From: Winogradskyella aurantia
GTDB lineage: Bacteria; Bacteroidota; Bacteroidia; Flavobacteriales; Flavobacteriaceae
Assembly (NCBI RefSeq): GCF_002266855.1
Contig: NZ_NGJN01000002.1
Span: forward strand, 62,001 to 126,000
DNA: 64,000 bases
Reading direction: 5' to 3'
Position 1 is the first letter of the stretch; the number at the start of each line of letters is the position of its first letter. A program made the translations under genes and the position numbers. Of this stretch, positions 31,316 to 60,815 are shown one piece after another. The notes beneath the pieces are model-generated. The model made no database searches and was not told the DNA's origin. It saw nothing but the letters and a program-made list of their open reading frames with translations.

Positions 31316-31357
31316 TAAAGTTACAAATGTTTAACCTTTTGATGTAAAAGTTGAACA
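31316..31357 (-). promoter_or_regulatory. Shared light-regulon operator, copy A, with -7-like box
   Basis: TGTTTAAC (31328-31335), 14-bp spacer, GTTGAACA (31350-31357). Four bp to the gene side is TAACTTTA on - (31316-31323). The same 8-14-8 inverted repeat occurs at 39865-39894 and 60786-60815. Confidence 0.75.
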
Positions 31358-31410
31358 AAAATTAACAGAGAATTATGAATGTAAGAATTTACATCTATTT
31401 TGACCTTCAA

Positions 31411-32901
31411 TCAGTCTGTTTTAAGCATTCGGCTTCTGTCGCTTAGAGTATGTCGTTTTAATATGCGAAAACTTTCACGGACGACCTCCGGGTCGTTTTT
31501 CATATTCCATAAAATATCGCTGGCACGTTTCCAATTGTCCTTTATGTCTACAATTGGTTCGGGATAGTCTTCTCCACGTTTAAAGTTGTAGAAGGCTTGT
31601 TCCATCTCTGTCATGATATAGGGCTCATGTACAAATGGCGTATCGAGTTTGGCAAGTTCGGGCACCCATTTTCTTATAAAAACGGCATCTGGGTCGTGCT
31701 TTAAACTATTGGCTACCGGATTGTATATTCTTATATTATTGATTCCAGTTTCTCCTGCCTGCATCTGTAATTGCGGAAAATGGATTCCTGGCTCAAAATC
31801 CAAGAATTGTTGGGATAAATGGGTCGACGCGTCTTGCCAGGGTTGCCATAGAATATGAGTGAAGAAAGATACTAGCATGGCCCGCATCCTAAAATTGACA
31901 TAACCCGTTTCAATTAAACAGCGCATACTGGCGTCTACCAAGGGAAATCCAGTTTGTCCTTCACGCCAGGCTTTTTGATAGCGTTCAGAGATTTGTTTTT
32001 TTAGTTTATGATAGCCTTTGTTGACACTTTCTTGCTCCATGGTATGCTCCATTTCAAACTTTTGGATGAAATGGGCCTGCCATCGCAATCGTGACATAAA
32101 CGCAGTGATATGCCTTTTATCCTTGGTTTTTTCCTTAACCTCTTTAGCTTTTTGAAACACTTGACGTATAGACAGGTTACCCCAAGAAATATACGGTGAG
32201 AGCCTACTACAGCTGGTACGTGAAGCTTCAGGTTTTGAAATGTTGAACATATAGTCACTGTGACGTTGCTCAAAAAATGAATTAGCATACGCCCAAGCTG
32301 TAGTGCTTCCACCTTTTTGAAATTCTGATTCTTCCGGAGTGTCGAGGTCCGTTATCGACAGTACCTTCTCTAAATCTGCAATAGCGTTAAAATCCAGGAA
32401 TTGGTGGGGTTCAGGATTAAAGGTCTCTAAATCGGCATTCATATAATCATCCCAGCTTTCAAACCAATGATCTCTGTTAACCAATCCACGTTCAACGCCA
32501 TTATTTTTGTTCTCAACCCATTTAATGAAATTATTGCGGCAATACCTTGTAAATTCCTTATCGCGATTATAGGTTAATAAAATCCCCGTTTCCACATGCG
32601 AAAACACCGTATCGATTTTATAAAACTCCTGAATTTGGTTAAAGGCGTTGGTAATGTCGCTGGTTACTGTTAATACCTTAGTGCTAAAGCGTGCTAACTG
32701 GGTATTTAGGTCTTTGATGGATTCCTTTATAAAATTGAAATGCCGCGCACTGTAATGCTTGTCATTTAATAGCATATGCTCAAAAACATAAAGCAAGAGC
32801 ACAGGCTTTTCTGCGGATAGCGCATTGCTTATAGCTTCGTTATCCTCCAAACGTAGGTCGCGTTTCAACCAAACGACATTAATAGGTTCTTTCTTATTCA
32901 T
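31411..32901 (-). CDS. Cryptochrome/photolyase family protein
   Basis: A 496-aa protein with an N-terminal photolyase domain ('[20 protein letters not shown]') and an FAD domain: '[18 protein letters not shown]', '[15 protein letters not shown]', '[28 protein letters not shown]', and a late '[31 protein letters not shown]'. The usual NxGNWQWxAG segment is replaced by '[19 protein letters not shown]', seen in a divergent bacterial subgroup, so repair activity cannot be assumed. It ends the eight-gene operon that starts at 39834 and overlaps the upstream homologue by 8 bp. Confidence 0.92.
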
Positions 32902-34378
32902 TATCTAGGGCCTTCAAAAATTGTGCTGCATTTTTAAAATGCGTCTCCTTGGTGTCTTGGTTCATTCGATTAAGGTTGCCCAGGAGCATACCTAATCTGG
33001 GATTACTTGAAAAAAAGTCGCTGTGCTTATCCATAAAGGACCAGAATAAGCCATCCCAAGTATCTTGCCAATCCCCTTTGGCATAGTTGCTCATCTTCAT
33101 GATATAGTTACTACTGCTAATGTAGGGTTTGGTAGACATAAGACCACCGTCAGCATATAGACTCATACCGTAAACATTGGGAACCATTACCCAGTCGTAA
33201 GCATCAATAAAAAGTTCCATAAACCATTTGTAGACCTCATCCGGGTCAAATTCGCAGAGCACCATAAAGTTGCCCAATACCATCAAGCGTTCTATATGAT
33301 GTGCATAGCCGGTCTTTATAACTTTAGTAATGACATCATCAACAGGTTGTATACCCGTCGTGCCTGTATAAAAGGACTTCGGGATTTTTCTGGAAAACTG
33401 CCAAAAATTCTTGGTGCGCTCTTCGGTGCCTTTAACCTCATAAACCCCTCTGATAAACTCACGCCAACCTAATATTTGACGAACAAAGCCTTCGGTGGAA
33501 TTAATAGGAACCTTATGTTCCTCAGCATAGGCAATCGCCTTGTCTATCACATCAGAAGGACTAAGGAGTCCGACATTTATCAATGGAGACAATAAACTGT
33601 GATTTAAAAAATGCTCTTCCTTAACGATAGCATCTTCATAGGCGCCAAACTCATGAAAGCGCTGTTCAAGGAAGCCTTGTAACCAGGCTTCAGCAGATGA
33701 AAAATCAATGGGATAGAGCACAAAATCGCTTAACTCACCGTAATGGGAATCAAAATGTTCATTTACATAAGTTTCAGCTTCCTTGTGGTATTCGCTTTTA
33801 TCTGGAAACTGAAGGCTAGGGGGCGTTTTATCCTTTGGATATTTCTTTCGGTTCTCCGTATCGTAAGTCCATTGACCACCCTCAGGCTCGCCAGAAACCA
33901 TCAGTAGGTTTCTGCGCTTTCGTTCCGACTTATAAAAGGAGGTCTGAAAAAATTTCTTTTTAGAAGGTTTAAAAAAGTCATTTAAATCCGCCTTGGTATT
34001 TATAAATAAAGGGTTGTCGTACCACTCTACCTTTACATTTTTTGATGACGCCTTAATCCGCTTTTCCAACCAATTATCAGTGGGATCTGTGATGTGAACG
34101 GTTTCAACACCTTCCTTGGTCAAGTGTGCCAACAGGGATCGAATGTCACTTCGGTCATCGGTAGCTTCTACATAAGTTACTTTTTTTTGCCTCGAGTCTA
34201 GATATTGAGCATAGGCCTTCATGGAAGCCCGATGGAATGCGATTTTTTGTTTGTGAAATTTATAATGTTTAAAGAACAAAAACTCCTCAACAAGATATAT
34301 GACCTCTACCGCATCAAGAGCTGCCGAGGTCTTGAACAATTGATGTGGAAATATTATATGTACATGATGCTGGTCCAT
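32894..34378 (-). CDS. FeS-BCP/PhrB-like photolyase homologue lacking the Fe-S cysteines
   Basis: A 494-aa protein from the ATG at 34378, 2 bp after the upstream stop; a longer frame to 34405 would overlap that gene. It is homologous to deoxyribodipyrimidine photolyase-related proteins (the (6-4) photolyase/CryB group): 'HIIFPHQLF' at the start, '[17 protein letters not shown]', '[16 protein letters not shown]', '[21 protein letters not shown]'. In the family four Cys hold a 4Fe-4S cluster. Here only Cys375 remains; the CxxC and CPF sites read NYAKGDW and DTWDGLFW (residues 431-446), and the loop is about ten residues shorter. FAD-binding residues seem kept. Cluster loss is visible; the effect on function is unknown. 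Confidence 0.9.
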
Positions 34379-34380
34379 AC

Positions 34381-35691
34381 TTAAAACAAACTTGGTTGTA
34401 ACCACAAGGCTCTATACTTTCCATTACTGTCATAACGTTCGGCCTGCAGTTTTACATTAAATTTTCGATCTCTTGGGTCATTGCCTACACCAGCGACATA
34501 CATCCAGTTGCCGTAATTGCTATGCACGTCATAATCAATCAATAGTGACTCAAAATAAGCAGCGCCAATGCGCCAATCGAGCTCCAGTTCTTTGGCAAAA
34601 TAGGAGGCCACGTTTTGCCGTCCGCGATTGCTCATCCAACCGGTTTCCTTTAATTCAATCATGTTGGCATTTACAAAATCCGAATGGGTTTCACCATTTA
34701 TCCAATTATCGATTTGATTTTTATCTTGTGACCACTCGTAATCCTTTCGTAAAATACCTTCTAACTTAAATATCTGATTGCCATGCTTCATGGATACATA
34801 TTTGAAATAGTCGCGCCATATCAGTTCAAAAATCAGCCAATAAGTGGATTGGTTTTTGTAGTGTTCCTGTTCAAATTCCTTTACCTTCCAGTAGATGGTT
34901 CTGGGAGAGAGACTACCGTTAGCAAGCCATGGTGAAAACTTGGAACTGTAGTCCACCCCAACCAGGCCATTTCGTGTTTTTTTATAGTAGCCTAATTTCT
35001 TGGTTTGGAAGAAGTAATCGTTCAAACGTTTTAAGCCTTCGGTCTCTCCGCCTTTAAATGGAAAGGCTGAATGTGGAGGCTGTTCAAAATCCTCAAAGCC
35101 TAAATCCTGTAACAACGGCATACTTGTAACCGGATCAATACGGTTAGATTCTGGTCGTTTTGAGCATATAACTTCCTTTCGAATAGGGACGTACTTCTCA
35201 AGTTTCTTTCGGAATACCGTAAAGACCTGTGGTGTTTTTGATATGTCGAAATTGATATCGTCCGGGTGATAAAGTAACTGATTGTATAGTGCATGCCAGT
35301 TGACCTTGGAATTTAAAGTCGACTTCACCTGGTTTTCCATATCTACTTCCTCTTGGGTCCATTCCTTCTGCAAGAAAAGGTCTGTCACTTGGTACTGTTG
35401 GCAAATTTTAGGAACCGTAGTCTCTGGTCTATCGAGGTATATGAAGAGGTCAATATTTAGTTCCAGAAGTTGTGCTTTTAAGTTCCTTAAGGTTTCGAGT
35501 AAAAACTTAGCGCGGTATCTTTCGGTTTTTTTAAATCCGTAGGCCGTCGGTTCAAAATGTCTTGGATCTATACAATAAAGTCCAATTACCCTGGCGCTGG
35601 AGTCGCAAGCCTTATGAAGTACGGCATTGTCTCGCAGGCGCAAGTCGTTTCTAAACCATACTAAATTTATGTTGTTTTCTGTCTTCTGCAT
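34381..35691 (-). CDS. DASH-family cryptochrome
   Basis: A 436-aa photolyase-family protein with DASH features: '[18 protein letters not shown]' at the N-terminus, '[13 protein letters not shown]'-like antenna boundary, '[15 protein letters not shown]'-type segment, and the diagnostic '[16 protein letters not shown]', '[21 protein letters not shown]' and '[21 protein letters not shown]'. DASH cryptochromes bind FAD and MTHF and repair CPDs mainly in single-stranded DNA. Its start lies inside the 3' end of the DUF2256 gene (25-bp overlap), so translation is likely coupled. Confidence 0.95.
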
Positions 35692-35810
35692 CGTTCACTA
35701 CAATAGATTACGTTGTCCCAATCTTTTGACCATTTTTTGCGCCATGTGAAGGGCCGCCCACAAACGGGACATATCTTTGTGGGTAAGTTCCCTTTTTTAA
35801 CACCTCTCAT
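35667..35810 (-). CDS. DUF2256 family zinc-ribbon microprotein
   Basis: A 47-aa protein with two Cys pairs in a zinc-ribbon arrangement: '[16 protein letters not shown]' (12-27) and '[10 protein letters not shown]' (34-43). DUF2256 genes repeatedly neighbour cryptochromes. The start overlaps the upstream gene's stop as ATGA, and its 3' end overlaps the cryptochrome start by 25 bp, so three genes are locked together by overlaps. Zinc binding is inferred; function unknown. Confidence 0.92.
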
Positions 35811-37228
35811 TGGGGCTCTATCAAGGCATTGATCATTCCTTTAAATACAAAGGCATGAAAAGGCAGTACCATATACCAATACAGTCGCCCCCAAACACCT
35901 TTAGGCCTAAATACAGCCCGTTGGTAGAGCCTGTTTTTCACAATCTTAAACTCGAGCCAAGCTTCACCGGGAAGTTTCATTTCCGCAAAGAGCAATAGGC
36001 GCTTTTCCTCCTTATCAGCAAATAAGACCCGCCAAAAATCTAAGGGGTCGCCCGCCTCTAAATAGGAGTCGTGCGTTCTGCCACGTCTTAGACCCACACC
36101 TCCAAACAATTTGTCGATATAGCCCCTTATTTTCCATAGCTTATTAAAGCTATACCAACCGTTTCTTCCCCCAATACTCCATATGCGGTTTAAGGTGTAG
36201 GCTTCGTCTTTGATTTCGCGGAAGCGAACATCCTTAAAACAGCCGTACTGTGGTAATTCTATGTGCTTTGAGAGCTGGTCCTTAAATACACCGCTACTCA
36301 CAGCGTCCTTCCAACTGGAAACCACCGATTTTTGTTGAATACGTTGGAAAGCGAGTTCTACTGCCGCCTTGTAAGACATTGGGTTTACGTCTATATAGTC
36401 ATTGATATCGCTAGGTTTACCGATAACCTCTACCTTCATGCTGTCCACCAAAGCTTGAGCCAATTGAAACGAGGTAGACGTCACAAAGTATAGCCAATAC
36501 GATGATAGTTTCGGGGTTAAAACGGGTAAGGTGTATATTCGTCGCTTTAGCCCACGAACTTCGGCAAATTGAAGCAGTAATTCTTTATAGGTTAATATCT
36601 CAGGACCATAAATATCATACGCCTTATGGTAAAGTTCTTTTTTGCCGAGAGCCCCAGATAAATAACTCAGTACATCTCTAATACCAATAGGTTGTGTTTT
36701 GGTATTCAACCATTTTGGTGTTACCATAACCGGCAGCTTTTCTACAATGTCCCGGATAATCTCAAATGATGCGCTGCCACTGCCCACAATAATCCCAGCT
36801 CTAAAGGTGGTTAAGGCATAGCTATCGGACTTTAAGGTTTCCTCTACCTGTAATCTCGACTTGAGGTGCTTGGATAATGAATCATCGTTAACAATACCAC
36901 TCAGGTAAATGACCTGTTCGCATCGAGTAGGTTCAATAAGTGTTTTAAAGTTTTGGGCACACTCCTTTTCCAAACGTTCAAAATCATCTGAATCTGTGGA
37001 CATGGAATGGATTAAATAGTAGGCCGCTTCAATATCCTCAGGAATTACAGCCTGTTCGGGCTTTAAAAAATCAACCTTAATGAATGTGCAGGAGGGATGA
37101 TCTTCTATTTCATCAGGAATACGCTCCATATCTCGGACGCAGCATACGAGCTCATGCTCCTCTTCGAGTAGCTGAAGGGCTAGTCGCTTGGCTATATAGC
37201 CAGTAGTTCCTGTGATTAAGATTTTCAT
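35807..37228 (-). CDS. NAD(P)-binding SDR-type protein with C-terminal DUF2867
   Basis: A 473-aa protein. The N-terminal Rossmann domain has '[19 protein letters not shown]' and an NmrA/complex-I-like reading ('[22 protein letters not shown]', '[20 protein letters not shown]'). From about residue 320 the DUF2867 domain carries '[23 protein letters not shown]', '[20 protein letters not shown]' and '[21 protein letters not shown]'. The final hydrophobic stretch may touch the membrane. It shares a single base with the flavin reductase gene stop (TAATG). Such proteins are common in photolyase operons; the substrate is unknown. Confidence 0.92.
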
Positions 37229-37866
37229 TAGCCATTATCCTTTATAAATTGAGGCTTTGGCCGTTGGTATTCTAGTCTTGCTTTTAACTCCGGAACGGCA
37301 TAGCCATCAAGTCCGTTAATTGTAGCGACTTGCCCTTTGGACAGATTGATAAAGCCATCTTTCTCCAATAAACTATCTGGAACAAATAGTTTTTCTATTC
37401 TGCCAATGAGCAAAATAGTATTATTCGCTTTTATGGGATATTCTTCCACGTAGGACATAGCCATTTGTACAGGACAATCCTTAACAAAGGGTGCACTACA
37501 ACCCTCTTTGTATTCCTCCTCAAGTTGTGTGACATTAAACTCTGAAATGCCCTTATCGTATTTAGCTGAGGTGTGGTGCGCGTCTTCCAGTATATTATTA
37601 TGGATATGATTTATGGTGTATTGTCCCGTAGCCTTTATATTGTCATAGGTATTTCTAATTACCGTCGTTGGTCTTAAAAAGAAGCCAAGGAGACCTGGAT
37701 TTGAGCCCAAATGCGTGATAGAACTAAAAACAGCAACATTACTTATACCGTCAGAACACTTAGTCCCAATAAGGTTTGCCGATTTGTAGCCACTACAACT
37801 GTTTATTAAGTTGATGCGGTACAAGTGATGCATCTGGTCAATATCCTTACGACTAAATTCTGCCAT
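37228..37866 (-). CDS. Flavin reductase family protein (FMN-binding split barrel)
   Basis: A 212-aa protein with the split-barrel features 'ANLIGTKCSDGISNVAVFSSITHLGSNPGLLGFFLRP' (about 29-65), 'RNTYDNIKATGQYTINHI' and 'LIGRIEKLFV'. Members bind FMN and reduce flavin or use it as cofactor. In a cryptochrome/photolyase operon it could keep flavin reduced. It starts 1 bp before the next gene's end; the order is tight throughout. Substrate and partner are inferred only. Confidence 0.88.
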   Translation of the reverse strand: MAEFSRKDIDQMHHLYRINLINSCSGYKSANLIGTKCSDGISNVAVFSSITHLGSNPGLLGFFLRPTTVIRNTYDNIKATGQYTINHIHNNILEDAHHTSAKYDKGISEFNVTQLEEEYKEGCSAPFVKDCPVQMAMSYVEEYPIKANNTILLIGRIEKLFVPDSLLEKDGFINLSKGQVATINGLDGYAVPELKARLEYQRPKPQFIKDNG

Positions 37867-39177
37867 TTATAGGTTTATAAAATTGTTGATTTTAACATTC
37901 TCAGCTTTCAAATCGAACATGAGATTGTAAAGCCCAAAGAAGGTTCTATTGATATATATAAAATGCTTTGATCCTCTATTACCGTTCATATTGCGAAGCT
38001 CTGTACTTTTAGAGTAGCGTTGACCCATTTCTGACACTTGATTGAAAAATGCTGGATCTGAAAAATCAAAGGTATCATGGTGAAAGGGCTGGGTAAACAA
38101 ACTCAACAAATCGTGGAACATAGTGCTGAAAAAAGCTATTTCCTCTTTAGAATCGTCTGGTCTTAAAATCTCCAACTCGTATAATTTTTTGGTAAAAAAT
38201 TCTGGATTTTCAAGACTTTCCTTCTTAGCCAATTCGAAATAGGGGACGTAGAACTCTTCAGGAATGGCTTTCATACAGCCGAAATCCAAAGCGATTAACT
38301 CACCATCTTCCGATATTAAAAAATTTCCAGGATGTGGATCGGCATGAACCTTTTTTAATTTATGTATTTGGAACATGTAGAAATCCCAAAGCGCTTGCCC
38401 CAAAGTATTAGACCTATCCTGATCGGTATTATGCGCTACAAATTCTGAAAGATGTTCCCCTTTCATGTAGTCCATGGTAATAATACGTTCCGAGGATAAT
38501 TCCTCGTAATACTGAGGAAATTTTAAATTTGGGATGTGTTTGCAAGCCTCTACAACCGCTTTACTTTGTTCTACTTCAAGGATGTAATTTGTTTCTTCGG
38601 TCAATTTGTTTTCAACTTCCTTGAAATATTTATCGGAATCCTTTCCTTTAATATTAAACATCTTAATGGCAATGGGCTTTACCAAGGCCAAATCTGATGC
38701 AATACTTTCTGCAACCCCAGGGTATTGAATTTTCACAGCAAATTTTTTCCCATCTTTACTTGCAAGGTGGACCTGACCAATACTGGCAGCGTTTACTGAG
38801 GTTGCATTGAAAGTATCAAAAAGGTCTTCGGGATTTTTCCCAAAATATTTTTTAAATGTTTTTATGACTAGTGGTGGTGATAACGGTGGCACCGAGAATT
38901 GAGAGAGTGAAAATTTCTCTACATAAGCCTGCGGCAGAATACTTTTCTCCATACTAAGCATTTGAGCAACCTTGAGTGCACTACCTTTTAATTGCTTTAA
39001 GCTGTCGTAAATATCCTCAGCATTGTTTTGATTAAGGCGTTCCTTGGCATCATCCTTGGAATTAACCATTTTATCACCGTAATACTTAAGGTAGTTTACA
39101 CCAACCTTGGCACCAGTGGATACGAGCTTGCTCGCTCGTGATATTTTAGTAATAGGTATACTGTCTATGCTTTTCAT
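37867..39177 (-). CDS. ABC1/AarF/UbiB family kinase-like protein
   Basis: A 436-aa protein with the ABC1 atypical-kinase signature: 'LKGSALKVAQMLSME' (KxGQ-like, about 45-58), the ATP lysine in 'KKFAVKIQYPG', and 'KVHADPHPGNFLISEDGELIALDFGCMK' with the catalytic Asp residues (around 280-305). The family is tied to ubiquinone/menaquinone and tocopherol metabolism and to stress; in photosynthetic organisms members respond to light. It directly follows the TetR-like gene (stop and start adjacent) and precedes the flavin reductase gene. Confidence 0.92.
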   Translation of the reverse strand: MKSIDSIPITKISRASKLVSTGAKVGVNYLKYYGDKMVNSKDDAKERLNQNNAEDIYDSLKQLKGSALKVAQMLSMEKSILPQAYVEKFSLSQFSVPPLSPPLVIKTFKKYFGKNPEDLFDTFNATSVNAASIGQVHLASKDGKKFAVKIQYPGVAESIASDLALVKPIAIKMFNIKGKDSDKYFKEVENKLTEETNYILEVEQSKAVVEACKHIPNLKFPQYYEELSSERIITMDYMKGEHLSEFVAHNTDQDRSNTLGQALWDFYMFQIHKLKKVHADPHPGNFLISEDGELIALDFGCMKAIPEEFYVPYFELAKKESLENPEFFTKKLYELEILRPDDSKEEIAFFSTMFHDLLSLFTQPFHHDTFDFSDPAFFNQVSEMGQRYSKSTELRNMNGNRGSKHFIYINRTFFGLYNLMFDLKAENVKINNFINL

Positions 39178-39834
39178 CTAAGTCATTTGCACTTTTTCCT
39201 TGAACAAAAATTTGCCAAAGTCCACTATGCTTTTTAGCGGTGTTACGTCAATTAAATCAAAACTAGCCTGAACTGATTTTTCTATAAATATATCTGTCTT
39301 TTCAAAAGAAGGGGAGGTGTCGTCTAGCCAAAATTTCATGGTAACTAATAATTGAAACCATGCGGATTCCTTTAGACTTCTGTTTTGAATTTTTGTAAGT
39401 TGCTCTTGGTTTAGGTCAATGGTTTTGATACCCAATTGTTCTATATAGTTGGTAAAACTCTTCTTAAGATGCGAGAGTAGTTTTAATGATTTCATCGAAT
39501 TCTTGTGACTGTCTAAGGCATGTACCACATAACTTCTGTTCGCCGTAAGATTTTCAAAAAACGTATAGTAAAAGCTGAGTAATTTATTGCGTGCATCGAA
39601 CGACTGATATTCTTCACTCTTATCTAGCGCCGTATGTGTGTTGTCAAAAAAGACCTTAAAAATAGATTGTTCTAATACGTCGAAAGAACCAAAAAACTCA
39701 TAGAATTTCGATTCGTCAAAATTGTTGTCCTTTGCAAAAGCATATACGGATTTTGGTTTATGATCGTGCATTAGCACGTAATCCATGTAGAATCCTATAA
39801 GGTCTGATTGTGAGATTGATTTTTTCTTTGCCAT
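39178..39834 (-). CDS. TetR-like protein heading the eight-gene light-stress operon
   Basis: A 218-aa mostly helical protein. Residues about 10-60 look like a TetR-type HTH ('VYAFAKDNNFDESKFYEFFGSFDVLEQSIFKVFFDNT' over 37 residues), although with fewer basic residues than usual; the rest forms a ligand-domain-like helical bundle. It is the first gene behind operator copy B (39865-39894), a normal arrangement for an autoregulator, and so is a candidate for the factor binding the shared operator. Its true DNA-binding ability is not shown by sequence alone. It is tightly followed by the ABC1 kinase gene. Confidence 0.78.
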   Translation of the reverse strand: MAKKKSISQSDLIGFYMDYVLMHDHKPKSVYAFAKDNNFDESKFYEFFGSFDVLEQSIFKVFFDNTHTALDKSEEYQSFDARNKLLSFYYTFFENLTANRSYVVHALDSHKNSMKSLKLLSHLKKSFTNYIEQLGIKTIDLNQEQLTKIQNRSLKESAWFQLLVTMKFWLDDTSPSFEKTDIFIEKSVQASFDLIDVTPLKSIVDFGKFLFKEKVQMT

Positions 39835-39852
39835 TGGATTGATTTTATACTG

Positions 39853-39894
39853 TAAAGATAATAATGTTTAATCATTTTGATATAAGGTTAAACA
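39853..39894 (-). promoter_or_regulatory. Shared light-regulon operator, copy B, with -7-like box
   Basis: TGTTTAAT (39865-39872), 14-bp spacer, GTTAAACA (39887-39894). TATCTTTA on - (39853-39860) lies 4 bp away, the same spacing as at copy A. The arms are identical to those of copy C upstream of proteorhodopsin. Confidence 0.78.
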
Positions 39895-40107
39895 AAATTT
39901 AACAAGACTATATGAGATGTCGCTAAGTTGGGCTTCAGATTCCTGTTAATTAAGTGAAACCAAGCTGAACATTTAATTGTCTTCGTGCATTTTAGAGGAC
40001 GCTGTTCTAAGTTGGACCTTTATCATTTTAAGGATTTATTAACAGATTTCGGTCCCTCGAAGTTGTAATTTTAACGCATTGAAACTAACAACTTAAACAC
40101 GCTTAAA

Positions 40108-40953: not shown

Positions 40954-40980
40954 ACTCCCTTATGCTTTAATATATTGTTT

Positions 40981-41014
40981 AAAAAACACGACTCCTCAAG
41001 AGTCGTGTTTTTTT
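40981..41014. terminator. Bidirectional terminator between convergent genes
   Basis: Stem ACACGACTC/GAGTCGTGT (40986-40994 with 41000-41008) with A and T runs outside. The T run overlaps the stop of the Gfo/Idh gene. Confidence 0.88.
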
Positions 41015-41990: not shown

Positions 41991-41992
41991 GA

Positions 41993-43792: not shown

Positions 43793-43793
43793 T

Positions 43794-49251: not shown

Positions 49252-49289
49252 AGCAGAGATTTTAAAACAAAGTTACAATGTTAACCTCC

Positions 49290-49874: not shown

Positions 49875-49879
49875 AAAAA

Positions 49880-50806: not shown

Positions 50807-50813
50807 GCTAAAA

Positions 50814-51128: not shown

Positions 51129-51132
51129 AGCC

Positions 51133-52414: not shown

Positions 52415-52499
52415 GGTGTAAAAATACTAAGTTTTTTACGGTGCCACAGAATTAGATGCATTTTTATACAATGAAAATGTAGGAGGCTATTCAAGTTTG

Positions 52500-52507
52500 T
52501 AACTTTG
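52500..52507 (+). promoter_or_regulatory. -7 box TAACTTTG of the mscL gene
   Basis: Exact TAnnTTTG, 29 bp before the ATG at 52537. It overlaps a GTG at 52507 and so argues against that longer frame. Confidence 0.55.
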
Positions 52508-52536
52508 TGCTTTTAATAACCAAAACCAAACGAAAA

Positions 52537-52986: not shown

Positions 52987-53056
52987 ACCCTCTATTTTCA
53001 AGAAATTTAACACCTTTTGAAGGTGTAAAACATTTATTCAAATAGACAAAAAGCCT

Positions 53057-53064
53057 TATCTTTG
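53057..53064 (+). promoter_or_regulatory. -7 box TATCTTTG of the CcsBA gene
   Basis: Exact Bacteroidota -7 element 26 bp upstream of the ATG at 53091. No strong TTG -33 element is evident. Confidence 0.6.
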
Positions 53065-53090
53065 CACGAGCTTAAAATAAGCAATCTGCT

Positions 53091-56000
53091 ATGCAAAAGA
53101 AAATCGCGAATTTCCTATTTTCAACTAAACTAACTGCTGTCTTATTTATCGTTTTCGCTGTTGCTATGGCAGCAGGAACTATACTGGACAGAAACATGGA
53201 AACGTCTCCAACGCCTTACACAAGACAATTGATATACAATGCCTGGTGGTTTGAAGCTATTATGGTATTTTTTGTTATCAATTTTGTAGGTAATATTTTT
53301 AGATTTCGTTTACTGCGTAAGGAAAAATGGGCCACCCTAACATTGCACCTTGCCTTTATCCTAATCTTGGTAGGTGCCTTTATTACACGATACATAGGTT
53401 ATGAAGGTATAATGTCTATTAGGGAAGGCGCTACTGAAAGTCAATTTTTATCGCAGAAAACCTACATTACAGCCTATGTGGTTGGGGATTACAAAAAAGA
53501 TGGTGTGCTTCAGCGTTACAATTTTCAGCGAGAAGTGGATTTTTCGCCCCGCCTGGATAACGAATTTGATGAGACCATCACTTACGATAATACGGAAGTT
53601 AATTTTAAACTTGAAAAGTTTGTAAAGGGAGCAGAAAAGGACATTGTGCCCAATGAAACAGGAGAATCTTATCTTAAAATCGTAGAAGCAGGTGATGGGC
53701 GTCCACATAATCATTTTTTAAAGGATGGTGAAATCTCTAATCTTCACAATGTTCTCATTTCTCTCAATAAATTTCAAGAGGGTGCTATAAATATCACCAC
53801 TACGGATGAAGGGATTTTCATTAAGTCTCCATTTGAAGGGGAGTACATGACCATGGCTACTGGAGCCACTGGCAAGGTTGTTAAAGATAGTCTACAGCCA
53901 CTGAGATTGCGATCTCGCTATGTGATAGGAAACATGCAATTGGTATTTCCTAAACCTGTTGTTAAAGGAACTTTTGATATTTTGAAGAAGCCTGTCATCT
54001 TAAAAAGTGACGAAGACGGTATTGTTTTAGATGTAACTGCAAATGGCCAAACCAAAAAGGTGAACCTACTAGGTGGTAAGGGTTCCTATAATGGTTTTGA
54101 GGAAATTGAGGTTGGCGGTTTGGAGATAGCATTACAGTATGGGTCTAGGGTAGAGCAGCTACCTTTTAAAATAAAATTAAATGATTTCATAGCTGAGAAA
54201 TATCCTGGAACCGAAAATGCGTATTCTTCATATGAAAGTAAGATAACGGTATTGGATGAGGAGGCAGGTGATTTTGACTATCATATCTACATGAACCATA
54301 TCTTGGATCATAAAGGCTATCGCTTTTTTCAGGCGAGTTTTGATCCCGATGAAAAAGGTACCGTACTTTCTGTCAATCATGATAAATGGGGGACATTAGT
54401 CACTTATGCAGGTTACCTATTACTTTATTTTGGTTTAATGGCTATTCTCTTTGCCAAACACACACGCTTTGATGATTTGCGCAAAATGCTCAATAAGCTT
54501 AAGGTTAAGAAAGCTAAGATAGCTACTGTATTAGCCTTGTTTTTAAGTTTAGCGGCATTTGGTCAAGAGCATTCTGAAAATGACGGGCACGACCACACAG
54601 CTCCGCAAAAGCCTTTAAGAGAGCAGATTGATTCTATTTTACGAGAGAACATTACACCAAAAGCCCATGCTGACAAGTTTGCAGAATTGGTCATTCAAGA
54701 CTACAGTGGCCGTATGATGCCAATGCATACCTATGCTTCTGAGATGCTCAGAAAAATAAGTAAAAGTGATGTCTATGGTGAATTCAATGCGACTCAGATA
54801 TTTCTATCCATTCAAGAATCCCCCATGCTGTGGTACAATGTGCCCATTATTTACCTCAAGCCTAGAAAGGCGGACTCCATAAGAACTATAATTGGTGTAG
54901 ATTACGATCAGAAGTATGTAAGCTTATTGGATTTCTTTACGCCTCAAGGGCGCAATAAGCTAGGACCTTACATAGAAGAATCCTTTAAGGCGCAAGTGCC
55001 GAATGGATTTCAAAAAGAGGTGAAAGAAACTTATGGTAGGCTTAGTTTACTGTCCGATGCTATAGAAGGACGTTCTGTTAAGATATTTCCAGTTCCAGAA
55101 GACGAAAACAATAAATGGATTTCTGCTTTTGAATACCGAAAGGAAGGCTACAAGGATGTTATAAAGGATTCCCTCTATGGCAATTTCGTGAACAAGGGAT
55201 TTAGCTTTTATTTAATGACTTTAAATAATGCAAAGCAGACGGGGGATTTTACAAATGCGAATAAATTATTAGAGGATTTTAAAAAGACCCAAAAAAAATT
55301 AGGTGCGGAGGTCATGCTATCTGACGATAAGGTTAAAACAGAAATTCTTTATAATAAATATGATATTTTTAAGAAGCTCTTCAGCTGGTATATGTATGCT
55401 GGTACCTTGCTATTTATCCTATTGATTGTTCAGATTTTTAAATCTAACAGTAAGGGCATCAATATTAGTGTCAAGGTTTTTAAAGTTATTATTCTTGGTT
55501 TGTTCTTGTTACATACTACGGGTCTTGTTGTGAGATGGTATCTTTCAGGCCATGCACCTTGGAGTGATGCTTATGAATCTATGATTTATGTCGCCTGGGC
55601 AACCATGTTGTTCGGTCTCTTGTTTGGACGAAAAAGTGATTTAACCATTGCGGCAACGGCCTTTGTGACTTCAATTATTTTGATGGTTGCACATTGGAAT
55701 TGGATGGATCCGGCCATTGCCAATCTAGAACCCGTTCTTCAGGGCTACTGGTTGATGATACACGTTGCGGTTATTGTTGCGAGTTATGGGCCTTTTACAT
55801 TGGGCTGGGTTTTGGGAATTGTGGCCTTACTTCTAATGCTGTTTACTACTACCAAGAATAAGGAAAAGATGAAGCTTAACCTCAAGGAACTCACCGTTAT
55901 AAATGAAATGGCCTTAACAGTTGGCTTGGTAATGTTAACCATTGGAAACTTCTTAGGGGGTATGTGGGCCAATGAGAGTTGGGGACGTTACTGGGGCTGG

Positions 56001-56288
56001 GACCCAAAAGAAACTTGGGCGCTTATAAGTATCATGATTTATGCTTTTGTTATTCACATGCGATTGATTCCAGGTTTACGTGGAAGATGGCTATTTAATC
56101 TTATGGCGGTCTTAGCCTTCTGTAGTATATTAATGACCTACTTTGGGGTTAATTTTTACCTATCCGGATTACACGCATATGCGAGTGGTGACCAAATAAT
56201 AAGCTTTCAGTTCATTGCTATTTATCTGGCTGCAATAGCCATTTTGGCTGCTTTAGCGTATAGAAAGTATAAGTTGCATTACAAATAG
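53091..56288 (+). CDS. ccsBA: Fused cytochrome c biogenesis protein CcsBA (ResB-CcsA)
   Basis: A 1065-aa membrane protein. N-terminal ResB/CcsB part: helices near residues 10-30, 50-70 and 80-100, a large periplasmic region, then a helix at about 440-460. After a His-rich segment ('EHSENDGHDH', about 492-501) comes the CcsA/CytC_asm part with about eight helices and the haem-handling tryptophan-rich 'WGRYWGWDPKETWA' near residue 965. System II exports haem and joins it to apocytochromes c. Fusion of both subunits is usual in Bacteroidota. Single transcription unit with a -7 box. Confidence 0.95.
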   Translation: MQKKIANFLFSTKLTAVLFIVFAVAMAAGTILDRNMETSPTPYTRQLIYNAWWFEAIMVFFVINFVGNIFRFRLLRKEKWATLTLHLAFILILVGAFITRYIGYEGIMSIREGATESQFLSQKTYITAYVVGDYKKDGVLQRYNFQREVDFSPRLDNEFDETITYDNTEVNFKLEKFVKGAEKDIVPNETGESYLKIVEAGDGRPHNHFLKDGEISNLHNVLISLNKFQEGAINITTTDEGIFIKSPFEGEYMTMATGATGKVVKDSLQPLRLRSRYVIGNMQLVFPKPVVKGTFDILKKPVILKSDEDGIVLDVTANGQTKKVNLLGGKGSYNGFEEIEVGGLEIALQYGSRVEQLPFKIKLNDFIAEKYPGTENAYSSYESKITVLDEEAGDFDYHIYMNHILDHKGYRFFQASFDPDEKGTVLSVNHDKWGTLVTYAGYLLLYFGLMAILFAKHTRFDDLRKMLNKLKVKKAKIATVLALFLSLAAFGQEHSENDGHDHTAPQKPLREQIDSILRENITPKAHADKFAELVIQDYSGRMMPMHTYASEMLRKISKSDVYGEFNATQIFLSIQESPMLWYNVPIIYLKPRKADSIRTIIGVDYDQKYVSLLDFFTPQGRNKLGPYIEESFKAQVPNGFQKEVKETYGRLSLLSDAIEGRSVKIFPVPEDENNKWISAFEYRKEGYKDVIKDSLYGNFVNKGFSFYLMTLNNAKQTGDFTNANKLLEDFKKTQKKLGAEVMLSDDKVKTEILYNKYDIFKKLFSWYMYAGTLLFILLIVQIFKSNSKGINISVKVFKVIILGLFLLHTTGLVVRWYLSGHAPWSDAYESMIYVAWATMLFGLLFGRKSDLTIAATAFVTSIILMVAHWNWMDPAIANLEPVLQGYWLMIHVAVIVASYGPFTLGWVLGIVALLLMLFTTTKNKEKMKLNLKELTVINEMALTVGLVMLTIGNFLGGMWANESWGRYWGWDPKETWALISIMIYAFVIHMRLIPGLRGRWLFNLMAVLAFCSILMTYFGVNFYLSGLHAYASGDQIISFQFIAIYLAAIAILAALAYRKYKLHYK

Positions 56289-56365
56289 ACATAAAATTTT
56301 CCTACAAGATTTTAAATATCTACAGACTATTTTTAGTAACTTGAAACCGTAACTAAAGAATAACA

Positions 56366-56554
56366 ATGGAATATTTCAAAAAATTAGGAACGGGTAACCT
56401 ACTGATGTTGATTTTGTGCGCGATTATAATTCTTGTTGCAGAGTACTTATTTTTAACCGGTGATCAATATCATGGAATATTTGTTGGCCTTTGGGCACCG
56501 ACATTACTTGGCGTGATGATTTACTTAAAGCTTGTAGATCATGGTGGCAAATGA
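56366..56554 (+). CDS. Small membrane protein
   Basis: A 62-aa protein with two hydrophobic helices (about 12-32 and 37-55): 'TGNLLMLILCAIIILVAEYL' and 'GIFVGLWAPTLLGVMIYLKL'. No known domain. Its 3' end overlaps the 36-aa frame that follows, suggesting coupled translation. Possibly related to respiratory or membrane assembly given the CcsBA gene upstream, but this is only proximity. Confidence 0.75.
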   Translation: MEYFKKLGTGNLLMLILCAIIILVAEYLFLTGDQYHGIFVGLWAPTLLGVMIYLKLVDHGGK

Positions 56555-56651
56555 TATCGTTTTTTGGTTTTCTGTAATTGTTATCGCTCTGGTCGCTATT
56601 TGGGCCATTCTAATGATTCGTGCATACAACAAGGCGAGTAGAAATGACTAG
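56541..56651 (+). CDS. 36-aa single-helix membrane microprotein
   Basis: An ATG at 56541 opens a 36-aa frame with one helix ('IVFWFSVIVIALVAIWAILM') and a basic end (RAYNKASRND), overlapping the previous gene by 14 bp. The positive-inside tail and overlap support a real gene; the short length limits confidence. Confidence 0.55.
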   Translation: MVANDIVFWFSVIVIALVAIWAILMIRAYNKASRND

Positions 56652-56691
56652 ATTGTTATAATGGTATAGCACTTAAATGTCTACTGCTTCG

Positions 56692-58377
56692 TCACTTTTC
56701 CAAAACATAGTTTCCAATAACTAAAGCGTCTAAGCCAGTAGAGTAGAAGCAACGCAATGCGTCTTTTGGCGATTCTACAACTGGTTCACCTTGGATATTA
56801 AAGCTCGTATTTAACACTACAGGTACGCCTGTTTTTTGCCCCAGAGTTTCAATGAGTTTATGATAGAGAGGGTTTGTAGTTTTGTTTACCGTTTGCAATC
56901 TCGCTGTGCCATCCACATGCGTAACAGCTGGGATAACATCCTGTTTTTCTTTGTAGACATTACAAACTTTAAGCATAAAAGGCGCTTCTACGGTTAAATC
57001 AAAATAGTCTTTATAGGATTCTACCAAAGCAGATGGCGCAAAGGGTCTGTAAGCTTCTCTATGTTTTACCTCAGCATTAATTTTATCTTTCATGTCCGGG
57101 AAAGCTGGATTCGCTAAGATGCTTCGGTTCCCTAAGGCTCTAGGCCCAATCTCCATAGAACCCTGAAACCAGCCTATAATTTTTCCTTCGGCTAAAAGTG
57201 AGGCCGCTTTTTCCGTAATATTCTCAAAATGTGTAGCTTTTAATTTGGCACCATCAATAGCTGCCTTTATCTCTTCGTTTTTATAGGAGGTACCTACGTA
57301 TGGATTGTCGTGAACAAATGTTCTCGGTTGCTTAAGAATGCCATTGTACAAATAGAACGCAGCACCAAGTGCGGTGCCATTATCACCTGCAGCAGGCATC
57401 ACATAAACATCTTTGAAGGGCGTCTCTCTTACAATTCTGCCATTCATAACACTATTTAGAGATACACCACCTGAAATTACCAAGTAGTCGGCTTTGGTTG
57501 TTTTGTGCAAAAGATTACAAATTTCCAATACCTTGTTTTCTAAGACTTTTTGGAATGCGGCGGCGACATTGAGGTGATTGGCCTCAAATTCGCCATCTTG
57601 TGCTCTTGGACTACCAAAAATCTCTAAAAACTTTTTTGAGTATAACTCCTTGATTAAATATTGATAATTAAAATAGGATAGGTCTACCTTGATTTGACCT
57701 TTAGAATTAACCGCAACCATTTTGTCAACTTCTTTTTCAAAAACACTGGGGTCACCCATAGGTGCTAATCCCATGGTCTTGCCTTCGTCATAATTGGGCT
57801 TAAAGCCACAAAACTGTGTTACGGTTTCGTAAAAAGAGCCCAGTGAATCTGGAAAGAAACTCTCACTGATTTTGTCAACTTTATTGCCTTCGCCATAACC
57901 TACCCAAGTTGATGCCCATTCACCAGAGCCATCAATACCTAATAAGGCCGCCTTTTTATAGGGTGAAACAAAAAAAGAACCTGCCACATGGGTTAAATGG
58001 TGTTCTATAAAATGAATTTGAGGTTTGTGCTTCCCATTAAAAGTTTTATTGTACCAAATCTTAAAACGTCTTTGTTTGGCATATGCATTGACGACATGAT
58101 GACCAAAAAAGGGCATAAAAAGTTTCAAATGCTTTAAAACGAATACCACTTTTTTAAACCAATGCGTTTGAGGCTTGATGGAGACGGCGATATGATCAAT
58201 ATCATCATAATCCAACCTAGAAATGGCTAAACATCTCTTGATAGCTCTTTCGGGAAATGCTTGCGTATGCTTGTCTCTATTAAGTCGCTCTTCTTCAATA
58301 GCGGCTATTAACTTCCCATCCTTAACAATACAGGCTGTTGAATCATGAAAATAATAATTTAAACCTAGAATTACCAT
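56692..58377 (-). CDS. NodU/TobZ family carbamoyltransferase
   Basis: About 561 aa from the ATG at 58377 ('MVILGLNYYFHDSTACIVKDG'), discarding an extension to 58440. The N-terminal Kae1-like domain has 'FIEHHLTHVAGSFFVSP' and 'AALLGIDGSGEW', and 'YLVISGGVSLNSVMNGRI'; the C-terminal YrdC-like part has 'GWFQGSMEIGPRALGNRSILANP' and 'VPVVLNTSFNIQGEPVVESP'. The enzymes carbamoylate hydroxyl groups of sugars or antibiotics using carbamoyl phosphate and ATP. The acceptor is unknown and no biosynthetic cluster surrounds it. Confidence 0.93.
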   Translation of the reverse strand: MVILGLNYYFHDSTACIVKDGKLIAAIEEERLNRDKHTQAFPERAIKRCLAISRLDYDDIDHIAVSIKPQTHWFKKVVFVLKHLKLFMPFFGHHVVNAYAKQRRFKIWYNKTFNGKHKPQIHFIEHHLTHVAGSFFVSPYKKAALLGIDGSGEWASTWVGYGEGNKVDKISESFFPDSLGSFYETVTQFCGFKPNYDEGKTMGLAPMGDPSVFEKEVDKMVAVNSKGQIKVDLSYFNYQYLIKELYSKKFLEIFGSPRAQDGEFEANHLNVAAAFQKVLENKVLEICNLLHKTTKADYLVISGGVSLNSVMNGRIVRETPFKDVYVMPAAGDNGTALGAAFYLYNGILKQPRTFVHDNPYVGTSYKNEEIKAAIDGAKLKATHFENITEKAASLLAEGKIIGWFQGSMEIGPRALGNRSILANPAFPDMKDKINAEVKHREAYRPFAPSALVESYKDYFDLTVEAPFMLKVCNVYKEKQDVIPAVTHVDGTARLQTVNKTTNPLYHKLIETLGQKTGVPVVLNTSFNIQGEPVVESPKDALRCFYSTGLDALVIGNYVLEK

Positions 58378-58710
58378 AACAATAAATTTGGAAGAGCAAT
58401 TAAGGAAAATAAAATGAATTAGATTATTATTTTCTACCATTTAATAATTTTCTCGTTGAAGGCTTCTGTCCTCAAATGAAAAGAGTCGTTATGAGTATAA
58501 AGCTTTTAAGGATTACGCAAAGGATAGTAATAACTTTAGTCTCTCGTATTCCCTTTACCGAAGTCATATTTTCTATGAGTTGGTGCTAACTTTATAAGTG
58601 AAACTACGTTTTAAATAATTGATTAGGCTAAGCTAAAATAGTATTTGTGAATGATCTAAAAAGTTGTGTACATTAAGGTTTAATATTTTTCAGTGAATTG
58701 GGCATATGGC
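58378..58710. other. Gene-free stretch between carbamoyltransferase and membrane-protein cluster
   Basis: No gene can be supported. A stop-free frame at 58460-58597 lacks a start codon and may be decay of an older gene. The divergent spacer carries the promoter of the gene at 58758 at its right end. Confidence 0.4.
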
Positions 58711-58744
58711 TTGAAAAAACTACTTAAACAAAGCCTTATCTTTG
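58711..58744 (+). promoter_or_regulatory. Bacteroidota-type promoter (TTG ... TATCTTTG)
   Basis: TTG at 58711-58713 and an exact -7 box TATCTTTG at 58737-58744, with a 23-bp spacer, 13 bp before the ATG at 58758. Confidence 0.65.
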
Positions 58745-58757
58745 TATCAAAAAGAAA

Positions 58758-59141
58758 ATGAAACTTACGCTTAAAGTAGCTGCGATTTATAATATTCTCT
58801 GGGGTGCTTGGGTTGTTCTATTTCCAAATCATTTTTTTAATCTAGTTGGTATGTCTCCACTTAACCATACGATGGTATGGCAGGGCATGGGCATGGTGAT
58901 TGGCGTTTATGGGCTTGGCTATTGGTGGGCCTCTTATGACCCAATGAGACATTGGCCTATAGTGGCTGTAGGTTTTTTGGGAAAGATATTTGGTCCACTT
59001 GGTTTTATCTTTAATTACCTTAAGGGTGAGGTCCCATTTGAGTTTATATATACCTTAATAACCAATGATTTTATATGGTGGATACCTTTCTTTTTAATTT
59101 TGAGAAGAGTACATTGTGACTACAAATGGCGTTTAACATGA
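58758..59141 (+). CDS. Hypothetical four-helix membrane protein
   Basis: A 127-aa protein with about four membrane helices and many Trp residues ('ILWGAWVVLFPNHFF', 'VWQGMGMVIGVYGLGYWWA', 'FIWWIPFFLILR'). Homologues in flavobacteria are sometimes labelled alkyl hydroperoxide reductase, but no peroxidase cysteine motif is present. First of three small membrane-protein genes whose ends overlap or abut. Function unknown. Confidence 0.8.
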   Translation: MKLTLKVAAIYNILWGAWVVLFPNHFFNLVGMSPLNHTMVWQGMGMVIGVYGLGYWWASYDPMRHWPIVAVGFLGKIFGPLGFIFNYLKGEVPFEFIYTLITNDFIWWIPFFLILRRVHCDYKWRLT

Positions 59142-59509
59142 TTAAAATTTTACGTTTACTACTTATCGGGTTTTATATTTTTGCGGGGGCTAACCATTTT
59201 ATAAACCCTGACTTTTATTTAGGTTTAATTCCTGATTACTTACCGTTTCCGGAGGCAATTAATTATAGCAGTGGTTTTTTTGAAATACTTTTGTCCATTG
59301 GTGTTGCCGTTCCAAAAACAAGGGCATTGGCCGCAAGGGGAATTATTCTTTTATTAATCTTGTTTATTCCATCGCACATCTATTTTATTGAAGTGGGGTC
59401 CTGTGTAGAAAACGCCTTCTGCGTAGAACCTTGGATTGCGTGGTTAAGATTATTGGTAATTCATCCATTACTCATGCTCTGGGCGTGGGCCATAAGAAAA
59501 ACGAAGTAG
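59138..59509 (+). CDS. DoxX-like small membrane protein
   Basis: About 123 aa from the ATG at 59138, which overlaps the previous stop as ATGA. Four membrane helices with the DoxX-like 'LIGFYIFAGANHFINPDFYLGLIPDYLPFPEA' at the N-terminus. Such proteins are linked to oxidative or membrane stress in some bacteria. Two cysteines lie in the loop SCVENAFCVEP. Middle gene of the three-gene membrane cluster. Confidence 0.82.
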   Translation: MIKILRLLLIGFYIFAGANHFINPDFYLGLIPDYLPFPEAINYSSGFFEILLSIGVAVPKTRALAARGIILLLILFIPSHIYFIEVGSCVENAFCVEPWIAWLRLLVIHPLLMLWAWAIRKTK

Positions 59510-59510
59510 T

Positions 59511-59924
59511 ATGACTTTAGATTTAGCACGCTTACTCACAGATACAGGGTTCTTGATATTGATTTGGGCTGTTCAATTGGTCATATATCCAAGCTTTAAC
59601 TATTATACGCCTAAAAATCTTTTTGAGTGGCATAAGAATTACACCGTACGGGTCACCTACATCGTGTTGCCTTTAATGTTCAGTCAGCTTATTCTAGCTG
59701 TCATTTATGTGTGGCAAATACAGAATTGGTACAGTATACTCAGCATATTGATTATAGTGATATTATGGCTGCTCACATTTTTAATCTTTGTACCCTTGCA
59801 CCAGGGCATAGATAAAGCACAGCCTCAAGAAAGAGTTTGCGATAAGTTGGTTTCAAAAAATTGGATCAGGACCGTATTGTGGACCTTGTTATTCATTTTA
59901 TCTTTATCTAATTATTTATTTTAA
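59511..59924 (+). CDS. Hypothetical four-helix membrane protein
   Basis: A 137-aa protein with four membrane helices ('TGFLILIWAVQLVIYPSF', 'YIVLPLMFSQLILAVIYVW', 'ILIIVILWLLTFLIFVPL' and the C-terminal one). Its ATG is 1 bp after the preceding stop, so the genes are coupled. No known domain. Downstream lies the terminator shared with proteorhodopsin. Confidence 0.8.
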   Translation: MTLDLARLLTDTGFLILIWAVQLVIYPSFNYYTPKNLFEWHKNYTVRVTYIVLPLMFSQLILAVIYVWQIQNWYSILSILIIVILWLLTFLIFVPLHQGIDKAQPQERVCDKLVSKNWIRTVLWTLLFILSLSNYLF

Positions 59925-59972
59925 TAATGGATTGAGACTCTTCATTTAAAGGTCAAAACCACTTATTTAACG

Positions 59973-59998
59973 AAAAAAGCCTCCCGAAAGGGAGGCTT
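59973..59998. terminator. Terminator between the membrane cluster and proteorhodopsin
   Basis: Stem AAGCCTCCC-GAAA-GGGAGGCTT (59977-59985, 59990-59998) with an A run on the left that gives a T run for the - strand proteorhodopsin transcript; weaker in the + direction. Confidence 0.85.
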
Positions 59999-60024
59999 AT
60001 ATATTATACTCTAACTAACTCTGA

Positions 60025-60768
60025 TTAAGCTTCAGAGGTAGATGTAGCTGCAACGGCTAAACCGTAAACAACAAGTCCGAATCCTATTTTGTTGATAGCG
60101 TCACCAATATTATAGATAACATCCATATTAAGTCCTAGCTCACCCACAAAAGAATACCATCCTTCTGTTCCGGCCATATACCCTAATGGATAGATTGCCC
60201 ATCCAACAAGTACGAACCAACACAATGTTTTGTGAGCGGCTAATACAGCACCACCGGCTTGTTCTGCCAATTTCTTGGCTTCCCCAAACCATATGATGTA
60301 CACAATAGCAAAATAAGCGACCCCAGAGATAAAGCCCCATAATGCTGGACCAGTTCCAGTAGTATATACAGCTTCTCCAAAATAACCTGTTACAAGCATT
60401 ACCACAGAAAGGAAAATCAATTTCCACATCAAGGATTTTTTAGCACCTGCAACTCTTAGGATAAGATAAAACTCAACACACATTAACGGTACGGTCAATA
60501 CCCAATCTACATATCTGAAAAATGTTGGGGACTCCATGTACGTAGCCCAATAATCTCTCATGTACCAATAGTGCACTGCAGCAATAAAAGTAATAAGACC
60601 TGACACCAAAATGGAAGTTCTCCACTTTTTATCAAAGGTATTCATTGATAAAAAGAAAAATGCCGAAGCGGCCATCATTGCCATACATCCTACAAAAAAT
60701 GTAAAGCCAACGTAATCATCGGTGGCCATTTTGCCCACCTCAGCGTAAAAGCTAGTTAGTAAATTCAT
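60025..60768 (-). CDS. Proteorhodopsin, green-type H+ pump
   Basis: A 247-aa seven-helix retinal protein. The helix C motif 'RYVDWVLTVPLMCVEFYLIL' has Asp88, Thr92 and Glu99 (DTE), the primary acceptor and donor set of proton pumps. The retinal lysine is Lys227 in 'DAINKIGFG', with Asp223 as counter-ion partner, and His66 matches the conserved pumping histidine. The position equivalent to 105 in the reference protein is Met96, the residue of green-absorbing flavobacterial forms. It makes proton motive force from light. It is divergent from blh and its promoter carries copy C of the shared operator. Confidence 0.97.
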   Translation of the reverse strand: MNLLTSFYAEVGKMATDDYVGFTFFVGCMAMMAASAFFFLSMNTFDKKWRTSILVSGLITFIAAVHYWYMRDYWATYMESPTFFRYVDWVLTVPLMCVEFYLILRVAGAKKSLMWKLIFLSVVMLVTGYFGEAVYTTGTGPALWGFISGVAYFAIVYIIWFGEAKKLAEQAGGAVLAAHKTLCWFVLVGWAIYPLGYMAGTEGWYSFVGELGLNMDVIYNIGDAINKIGFGLVVYGLAVAATSTSEA

Positions 60769-60773
60769 AATTA

Positions 60774-60815
60774 TAAATTTTAGTTTGTTTAATCAAAAAT
60801 AAGAATTGTTAAACA
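60774..60815 (-). promoter_or_regulatory. Shared light-regulon operator, copy C, upstream of proteorhodopsin
   Basis: TGTTTAAT (60786-60793), 14-bp spacer, GTTAAACA (60808-60815); arms identical to copy B. The AAAATTTA box on - (60774-60781) lies at the same 4-bp offset. The spacer also contains TATTTTTG on -, a full -7 match. Copy C lies 61 bp from the blh start, so it could affect both divergent genes. Confidence 0.78.

Follow-up and report, generated by a model that had tools for sequence, protein, structure and literature searches.

An operator shared by photolyase operons and proteorhodopsin in Winogradskyella aurantia, with a CarH-like MerR protein as its probable regulator

The stretch of Winogradskyella aurantia DNA analysed here, hereafter the window, spans 64,000 nucleotides (contig NZ_NGJN01000002.1, positions 62,001 to 126,000) and carries three light-related transcripts on its minus strand, each preceded by one copy of a 30-bp inverted repeat, TGTTYAAY-N14-RTTRAACA. 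This element is almost certainly a shared operator, and its binder is very probably a CarH-like protein of the MerR family that is encoded outside the window. According to open reading frames (ORFs) and Pfam/NCBIfam matches, operon A (25928-31308) comprises genes for a 143-aa protein, a DUF2805 protein, FolE, a small ORF, an SDR protein, glutathione peroxidase, a second small ORF, TspO, an SRPBCC-like protein and a photolyase; the SRPBCC-like ORF matched no Pfam/NCBIfam family and owes its name to our own reading. Operon B (31411-39834) comprises genes for a TetR protein (TetR_C_23), an ABC1 kinase-like protein, a flavin reductase, an SDR-DUF2867 protein, a small ORF, a DASH cryptochrome, a DPRP photolyase-like protein and a photolyase. 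The third transcript is the proteorhodopsin gene (60025-60768, PF01036), which is divergent from blh on the plus strand (60877-61749, PF15461), encoding the beta-carotene 15,15'-dioxygenase of retinal synthesis.

Exact copies of the element lie on the minus strand at 31328-31357 (operator A), 39865-39894 (operator B) and 60786-60815 (operator C), at the very positions given in the initial annotation. That annotation had also placed them 17-30 bp before the first start codon, had described the arms of B and C as identical and had seen no other full copy in the window; the distances to the ORF starts at 31308, 39834 and 60768 are indeed 19, 30 and 17 bp, the two sets of arms are the same, and matches with zero mismatches are confined to these three. 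Its operon sizes of ten and eight genes hold for A and B once the small ORFs at 29629-29856, 28220-28387 and 35667-35810 are included. The promoter box that it drew exactly 4 bp on the gene side of every copy stands for two of the three: TAACTTTA (31316-31323) in operon A and TATCTTTA (39853-39860) in operon B, both on the minus strand, fit TAnnTTTR, while operator C reads AAAATTTA there. A box at this spacing was rejected for operator C. The TAnnTTTR box is instead part of the operator itself, next to the gene-side arm (TATTTTTG, 60794-60801, minus strand), at the same offset in all four exact proteorhodopsin sites examined. Operators A and B each have a further half-site, TGTTAA, on the upstream side, 10 bp from the distal arm (31362-31367 and 39899-39904, minus strand).

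Searching the whole 3.2-Mb genome returned exactly three exact matches, all inside the window, and none for a reversed control pattern; the motif is thus not common at random sites. With up to two mismatches the counts were 33 versus 27 for the control. The excess being nearly gone, weak matches are mostly background and the signal is carried by the exact form. Within the window, 14 matches had up to three mismatches, compared with 7.5 expected from shuffled sequence. Four sites in the genome have a single mismatch. Two are within ORFs and one has no nearby gene start; the fourth (G000:C14:83799-83828; L411:2300-2329) is located 46 bp 5' of a short fasciclin-type gene and is probably the fourth operator of this genome.

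The element is conserved well beyond this genome. Exact sites occur in 67 of 68 Winogradskyella genomes, one to seven in each, and the reversed control in two; the remaining genome (G010) has, as judged by eye, a one-mismatch site before its TetR gene. At the family level, 294 of 397 Flavobacteriaceae genomes hold an exact site and 37 the control, the latter counted by eye. In named GTDB genomes, conservation upstream of orthologues was confirmed at the promoters of the TetR gene (80 loci, 79 scored): an exact site is present within 90 bp at 69 of the 79, and one with a single mismatch at eight more; the closest named loci for the window TetR gene are those of W. pelagia, W. jejuensis and W. 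wandonensis. We then assigned the first genes at 104 of the 105 sites in genomes G001-G034, the missing site being one of those in G023. They belong to the TetR operon (31, orthologous to operon B), fasciclin-type genes (28, one of which, L077, was assigned from promoter and gene length), the folE operon (23), GLPGLI-family genes (10), proteorhodopsin (3) and others (9). Five gene sets, TetR/cryptochrome, folE/photolyase, fasciclin, GLPGLI and proteorhodopsin, therefore cover 95 of the 104 sites. Such conserved gene sets behind the site indicate the operator of a small regulon that is larger than the three transcripts of the window.

Several members of this regulon have features of their own. 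The first two genes of operon A (30608-31308) encode the 143-aa protein, which has no Pfam/NCBIfam match, and the DUF2805/TIGR03643 protein; orthologues of the 143-aa gene remain first behind the operator at all 23 folE-operon sites. In most sampled genus genomes with a fasciclin site, one operator is common to the fasciclin-domain gene and a MORN/YwqK-like gene of 237 aa divergent from it (L036:2301-4085; L041, L042, L046 and others). The ten GLPGLI/Porph_ging genes (L051:2129-2986 and nine other loci) belong to a family of unknown function.

Proteorhodopsin is present in 23 of the 68 genus genomes, and the operator that the initial annotation had assigned to it recurs there. The best match within 90 bp upstream has no mismatch at 5 of the 23 promoters, one at 12, two at 3, three at 2 and four at 1. 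In a shuffle null the rates were 0.0004 for at most one mismatch, 0.07 for at most three and 0.30 for at most four, so the four-mismatch promoter is no better than chance. The blh gene is divergent from proteorhodopsin at all 23 loci, 104-117 bp away. An operator for proteorhodopsin with up to three mismatches begins 60-61 bp from the blh start at 22 loci and is missing at the 23rd, and a second operator, at the same threshold, begins 26 bp from the blh start at 13 of the 23; in the window this second copy is a degenerate one with three mismatches (60821-60850, plus strand). The proton pump and the retinal-making enzyme thus have a paired operator region at about half of the loci and one operator at nearly all.

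The promoters fall into two classes. The Bacteroidetes -7 element is TAnnTTTG. Class I comprises operons A and B. Here the -7-like box, TAnnTTTR, is located 4-5 bp past the gene-side arm (A, 24/24; B, 29/32), and on the other side, 9-10 bp out from the far arm, there is a third half-site, WGTTAA (A, 24/24; B, 31/32). In class II the box is inside the operator beside the gene-side arm, as found at 4/4 proteorhodopsin sites examined (window, G002, G024 and G032), 19/27 fasciclin sites and 9/10 GLPGLI sites; the gene-side arm then extends past the box toward the gene start, over the start region. In either class promoter elements would be masked by a bound protein, an arrangement more in keeping with repression. 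Of 214 arms, 89 match the full CarH half-site, nAnnTnnACAn, indicating that its outer A is weak.

A candidate regulator was found among the two MerR_1 matches of the Winogradskyella genome at a threshold of E 0.001. It is a 303-aa protein (G000:C16:245134-246042) encoded by the first gene of a merR-crtI-crtB-crtZ cluster, in which the crt names come from our reading of the ORFs and the end of merR overlaps the start of crtI by 4 bp. The protein has a MerR-type DNA-binding domain (PF13411, 56.9 bits) with a recognition helix of the form RxWEKRY, a domain that is poorly modelled, followed by a cobalamin-binding domain, and its sequence matches that of Thermus CarH (5c8d, E 5e-12). In the structure model the sensor domain is a CarH-like fold, with a predicted four-helix bundle and a Rossmann cobalamin domain. 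We divided homologues in other genomes into close and divergent MerR proteins at a gap in E-values (at most 7e-63 and at least 2e-49, respectively) and aligned 65 close and 4 divergent ones, the latter from 3 genera; Wx9EH (W143, E153 and H154) and ExHx2G are kept in all 69. In all 29 genus loci read, the merR promoter keeps half-sites around a -7-like box, and in 27 of them TGTTAA lies 33-34 bp upstream. Across 30 genus loci, merR is never followed by an exact site. In other genera one is located 11-23 bp past the merR stop in 11 of the 16 loci with a located gene end (of 27 loci), and in separately read loci such post-merR sites directly precede crtI, which starts 0-2 bp after the site at all eight crtI sites read beside merR.

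Presence of the operator follows the close MerR. Among the 397 family genomes, the exact site was found in 276 of 293 with a close MerR versus 18 of 104 without. For the 394 genomes outside the genus, the counts were 219/231 with close MerR and TetR, 54/59 with close MerR alone, 4/14 with divergent MerR and TetR, 1/14 with divergent MerR alone, 6/13 with TetR alone and 7/63 with neither. Given the control in 37 of 397 genomes, the last figure is near background, and three of the six site-bearing genomes in the TetR-alone group are less than 90% complete, so that a MerR may have been missed. One genome per genus gave the same picture. The presence lists were copied by hand, and their totals agree (321, 261 and 394). 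Six genera contain both MerR types. In five of them (g7, g33, g114, g203 and g230) genomes with the close MerR have 3-5 canonical sites and those with the divergent MerR none; in the sixth (g93) canonical sites are absent with either type. One genus genome, G052, has no TetR and a single exact site with no close gene start, and is thus uninformative on the choice between MerR and TetR.

The operator also changes together with the regulator. A variant, TGTCTAAY-N14-RTTAGACA, occurs in exact form in 12 of the 397 genomes: in 11 of the 28 whose MerR is divergent and in one of the 293 with a close MerR; its control occurs in one genome. The exception (G202) has two MerR matches, two variant sites and no canonical site, and may represent an operator/regulator swap in progress. 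At the TetR promoters of 12 divergent-MerR genomes, both arms are variant in 5 (one with N15), one arm is variant in 3, the site is canonical in 1 and none is present in 3; in 8 genomes with no MerR match, 3 sites are canonical (two of them exact, the other with a single mismatch) and 5 promoters have none. The 14 variant sites are located before TetR (4), in the fasciclin-merR gap (3), in the crtI-merR gap (1), before ABC1 (1), before SDR-DUF2867 (1) and before a 6-pyruvoyl tetrahydropterin synthase-folE pair (1), with 3 unlabelled. These positions indicate that the regulon is kept while an operator letter changes. The pterin pair (L297:1501-2639), which strengthens the link to pterins, is in G133, a genome with a divergent MerR. 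All 65 close proteins have RIWEKRY as their recognition helix, and the 4 divergent ones have RKWETRY or RKWESRY, a difference of two residues (26 and 29). The operator base that changes is at a variable position of TnnACA, the known CarH half-site (PMC9304148, as available in part). Such a joint change of operator and recognition helix is expected of a direct binder and its operator. Together with the co-occurrence, this covariation supports the common regulator that the initial annotation had suggested.

Several observations weigh against a CarH-like MerR as the cobalamin-dependent binder of this operator. Outside the genus, 17 close-MerR genomes lack an exact site, and 18 genomes have one without a close MerR; the exact variant site is absent from 17 of the 28 divergent-MerR genomes; and genus g26 (G092 and G319), with divergent MerR and 2 and 5 canonical sites, is an unexplained exception. 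Kinship among the genomes makes the p-values for co-occurrence too small. The layout, inverted arms 22 bp apart plus a direct half-site 10 bp away, is not that of the tandem 11-bp direct repeats, nnnnTnnACAn, bound by CarH. In the sensor domain, the His after Trp is Gln (Gln144) in 65/65 close homologues; this His supplies the upper ligand to cobalt in Thermus CarH after illumination, as stated in the accessible part of PMC10442372. The full ExHx2G-x41-SxV/T-x22-27-GG motif is not matched, its S being at x40, and the tail is degenerate: S237 is present in 64/65 and followed by YF, and GG is replaced by G plus mostly Q, K or R. Owing to the Gln in place of the capping His and the degenerate tail, we call the protein CarH-like and not CarH.

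The TetR protein of operon B was the first candidate, as a regulator that would bind the other sites as well as its own promoter. Its gene is directly behind operator B, and at 30/30 best-scoring TetR loci (of 261 genomes; all 30 with a close MerR) the site has at most one mismatch. Outside the genus sample, close-MerR genomes average 3.02 sites with TetR versus 1.97 without it, and genomes without a close MerR 0.93 versus 0.12; we infer that the extra sites are those of the TetR operon itself. Yet 54 of the 59 genomes with a close MerR and no TetR keep exact sites, and the three such genomes read (G139, G210 and G443) have them upstream of, for example, crtI, fasciclin and SRPBCC-like genes. 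Where TetR is present and a close MerR is not (27 genomes, 20 of them read), the site before TetR is by our reading canonical in 4 (3 exact, 1 with one mismatch) and altered or lost in 16; by plain count, 7 of the 20 have at most one mismatch, 3 of these with one variant arm. TetR is 54-64% identical to the window protein in the eight genomes with changed arms. An arm spacing of 22 bp is also wide for a single TetR dimer. A PDB sequence search with this TetR returned nothing at E 0.001. TetR was rejected on the grounds of co-occurrence and of the altered site where it is kept without a close MerR, and is now a very improbable regulator. Chance occurrence of AT-rich inverted repeats would account for the loose matches, which are at background level; it is already excluded for the exact form by the genome and genus counts and by the consistent gene targets, and we give it practically no weight.

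Two further alternatives accept the MerR as binder and differ in what it does. It, or a partner, could switch the genes on from upstream, as the class I arms that end 4-5 bp before the box would allow; however, the class II arm that reaches past the box toward the start and the crtI starts adjacent to merR-side sites fit blocking, and an activator site is quite unlikely. Alternatively, the same MerR may sense cobalamin supply, or redox state or singlet oxygen, and not light directly, so that the regulon would follow B12 status or photo-oxidative stress. The Gln at the illuminated-state ligand and the degenerate tail are in favour of this, and the glutathione peroxidase and TspO of operon A would suit oxidative or porphyrin stress. 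For Thermus H132A, one study found the protein mostly tetrameric in light, whereas an earlier report cited in the same paper has it disassembling (PMC10442372, both as given in the part available). Against such sensing, the alignment shows no variation in Wx9EH and ExHx2G, the motifs by which CarH holds adenosyl and cobalt, and the gene content is centred on light. We regard this alternative as unlikely, less so than an activator site.

The CarH-like MerR as a repressor of a whole photo-stress regulon is the model that we consider probable, with cobalamin- and light-dependent derepression only slightly less so; we infer that the protein represses and does not activate, that it binds cobalamin and that light is the trigger. 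In the dark, the adenosylcobalamin-loaded MerR would occupy both arms, each a TnnACA half-site, and at operons A and B the third half-site as well, thereby keeping RNA polymerase off the covered promoter. Once light cleaved the cofactor, the MerR would release the DNA, allowing joint production of proteorhodopsin, the enzymes of retinal and carotenoid synthesis, photolyases, cryptochrome and the pterin (folE) pathway. The literature searched yielded no expression data for Winogradskyella.

This system resembles CarH of Thermus thermophilus, Bacillus megaterium and Myxococcales in its MerR and cobalamin domains, Wx9EH and ExHx2G, crt neighbours, promoter-overlapping sites and half-sites that fit TnnACA, though the last was built into the search pattern. 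Besides the layout, the Gln and the tail, it differs from CarH in a regulon that includes proteorhodopsin, photolyases and fasciclin genes. Carotenoid genes are under LitR/CarH-type proteins in Myxococcus and Thermus, according to the available part of PMC8156234. In Pseudomonas, such proteins control photolyase, folE and cryptochrome genes; there the class II LitR proteins PplR-PmlR use two spaced half-sites at light-inducible promoters, with phrB, folE and cryB as targets, PmlR2 acts via a LOV protein, and rhodopsin is not named in the part of the paper available (PMC9758184). The class II LitR site is T(G/A)TACA-N12-TGTA(C/T)A, unlike the TTAAACA half-site here, and in LitR class II the cobalamin domain is reduced to its four-helix part, unlike in our model with its predicted Rossmann domain. 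RpoS1 of Vibrio campbellii regulates a proteorhodopsin gene that rises in light; it is a stress-response sigma factor, and the portion of PMC3380642 available names no operator that this gene has in common with repair operons. A TetR-family autoregulated repressor would share the position of the TetR gene, first in operon B behind the operator; site presence here, unlike in such a system, does not follow TetR presence. In Chryseobacterium lacus, crt genes are light-induced and the authors, in the part available, report no car/lit operon genes (PMC7064467), which is loosely supportive at most. Among the open-licence literature matches listed, in the parts available, none ties CarH/LitR to proteorhodopsin or to a Bacteroidetes regulon. 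As far as we searched, the Flavobacteriaceae CarH-like regulon with proteorhodopsin and blh, the operator layout and the regulator-operator covariation are new.

The broadest form of the proposal, in which a CarH-like regulator with an altered set of cobalt ligands is the master switch of phototrophy, pigmentation and photo-repair across Flavobacteriaceae, may hold or fail about equally well; if it holds, proteorhodopsin output would depend on both light and B12, the inverted operator layout would be a new one, and release by light could not be the bis-His capping of the Thermus type. The operator and recognition-helix pairs described here are natural material for studying specificity change in MerR proteins. 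Flavobacteriaceae are an abundant marine group, and the analysis gives them a named, testable regulator and operator of proteorhodopsin. In 2012 the molecular regulator of proteorhodopsin was unknown outside Vibrio RpoS1, as stated in the available part of PMC3380642. Photolyase genes are enriched in Flavobacteriia with proteorhodopsin, as reported in the part available of PMC5932025, and the shared operator offers a promoter-level reason for this link in gene content. If the model is true, phototrophy would in addition be tied to vitamin B12, which many marine bacteria have to import.

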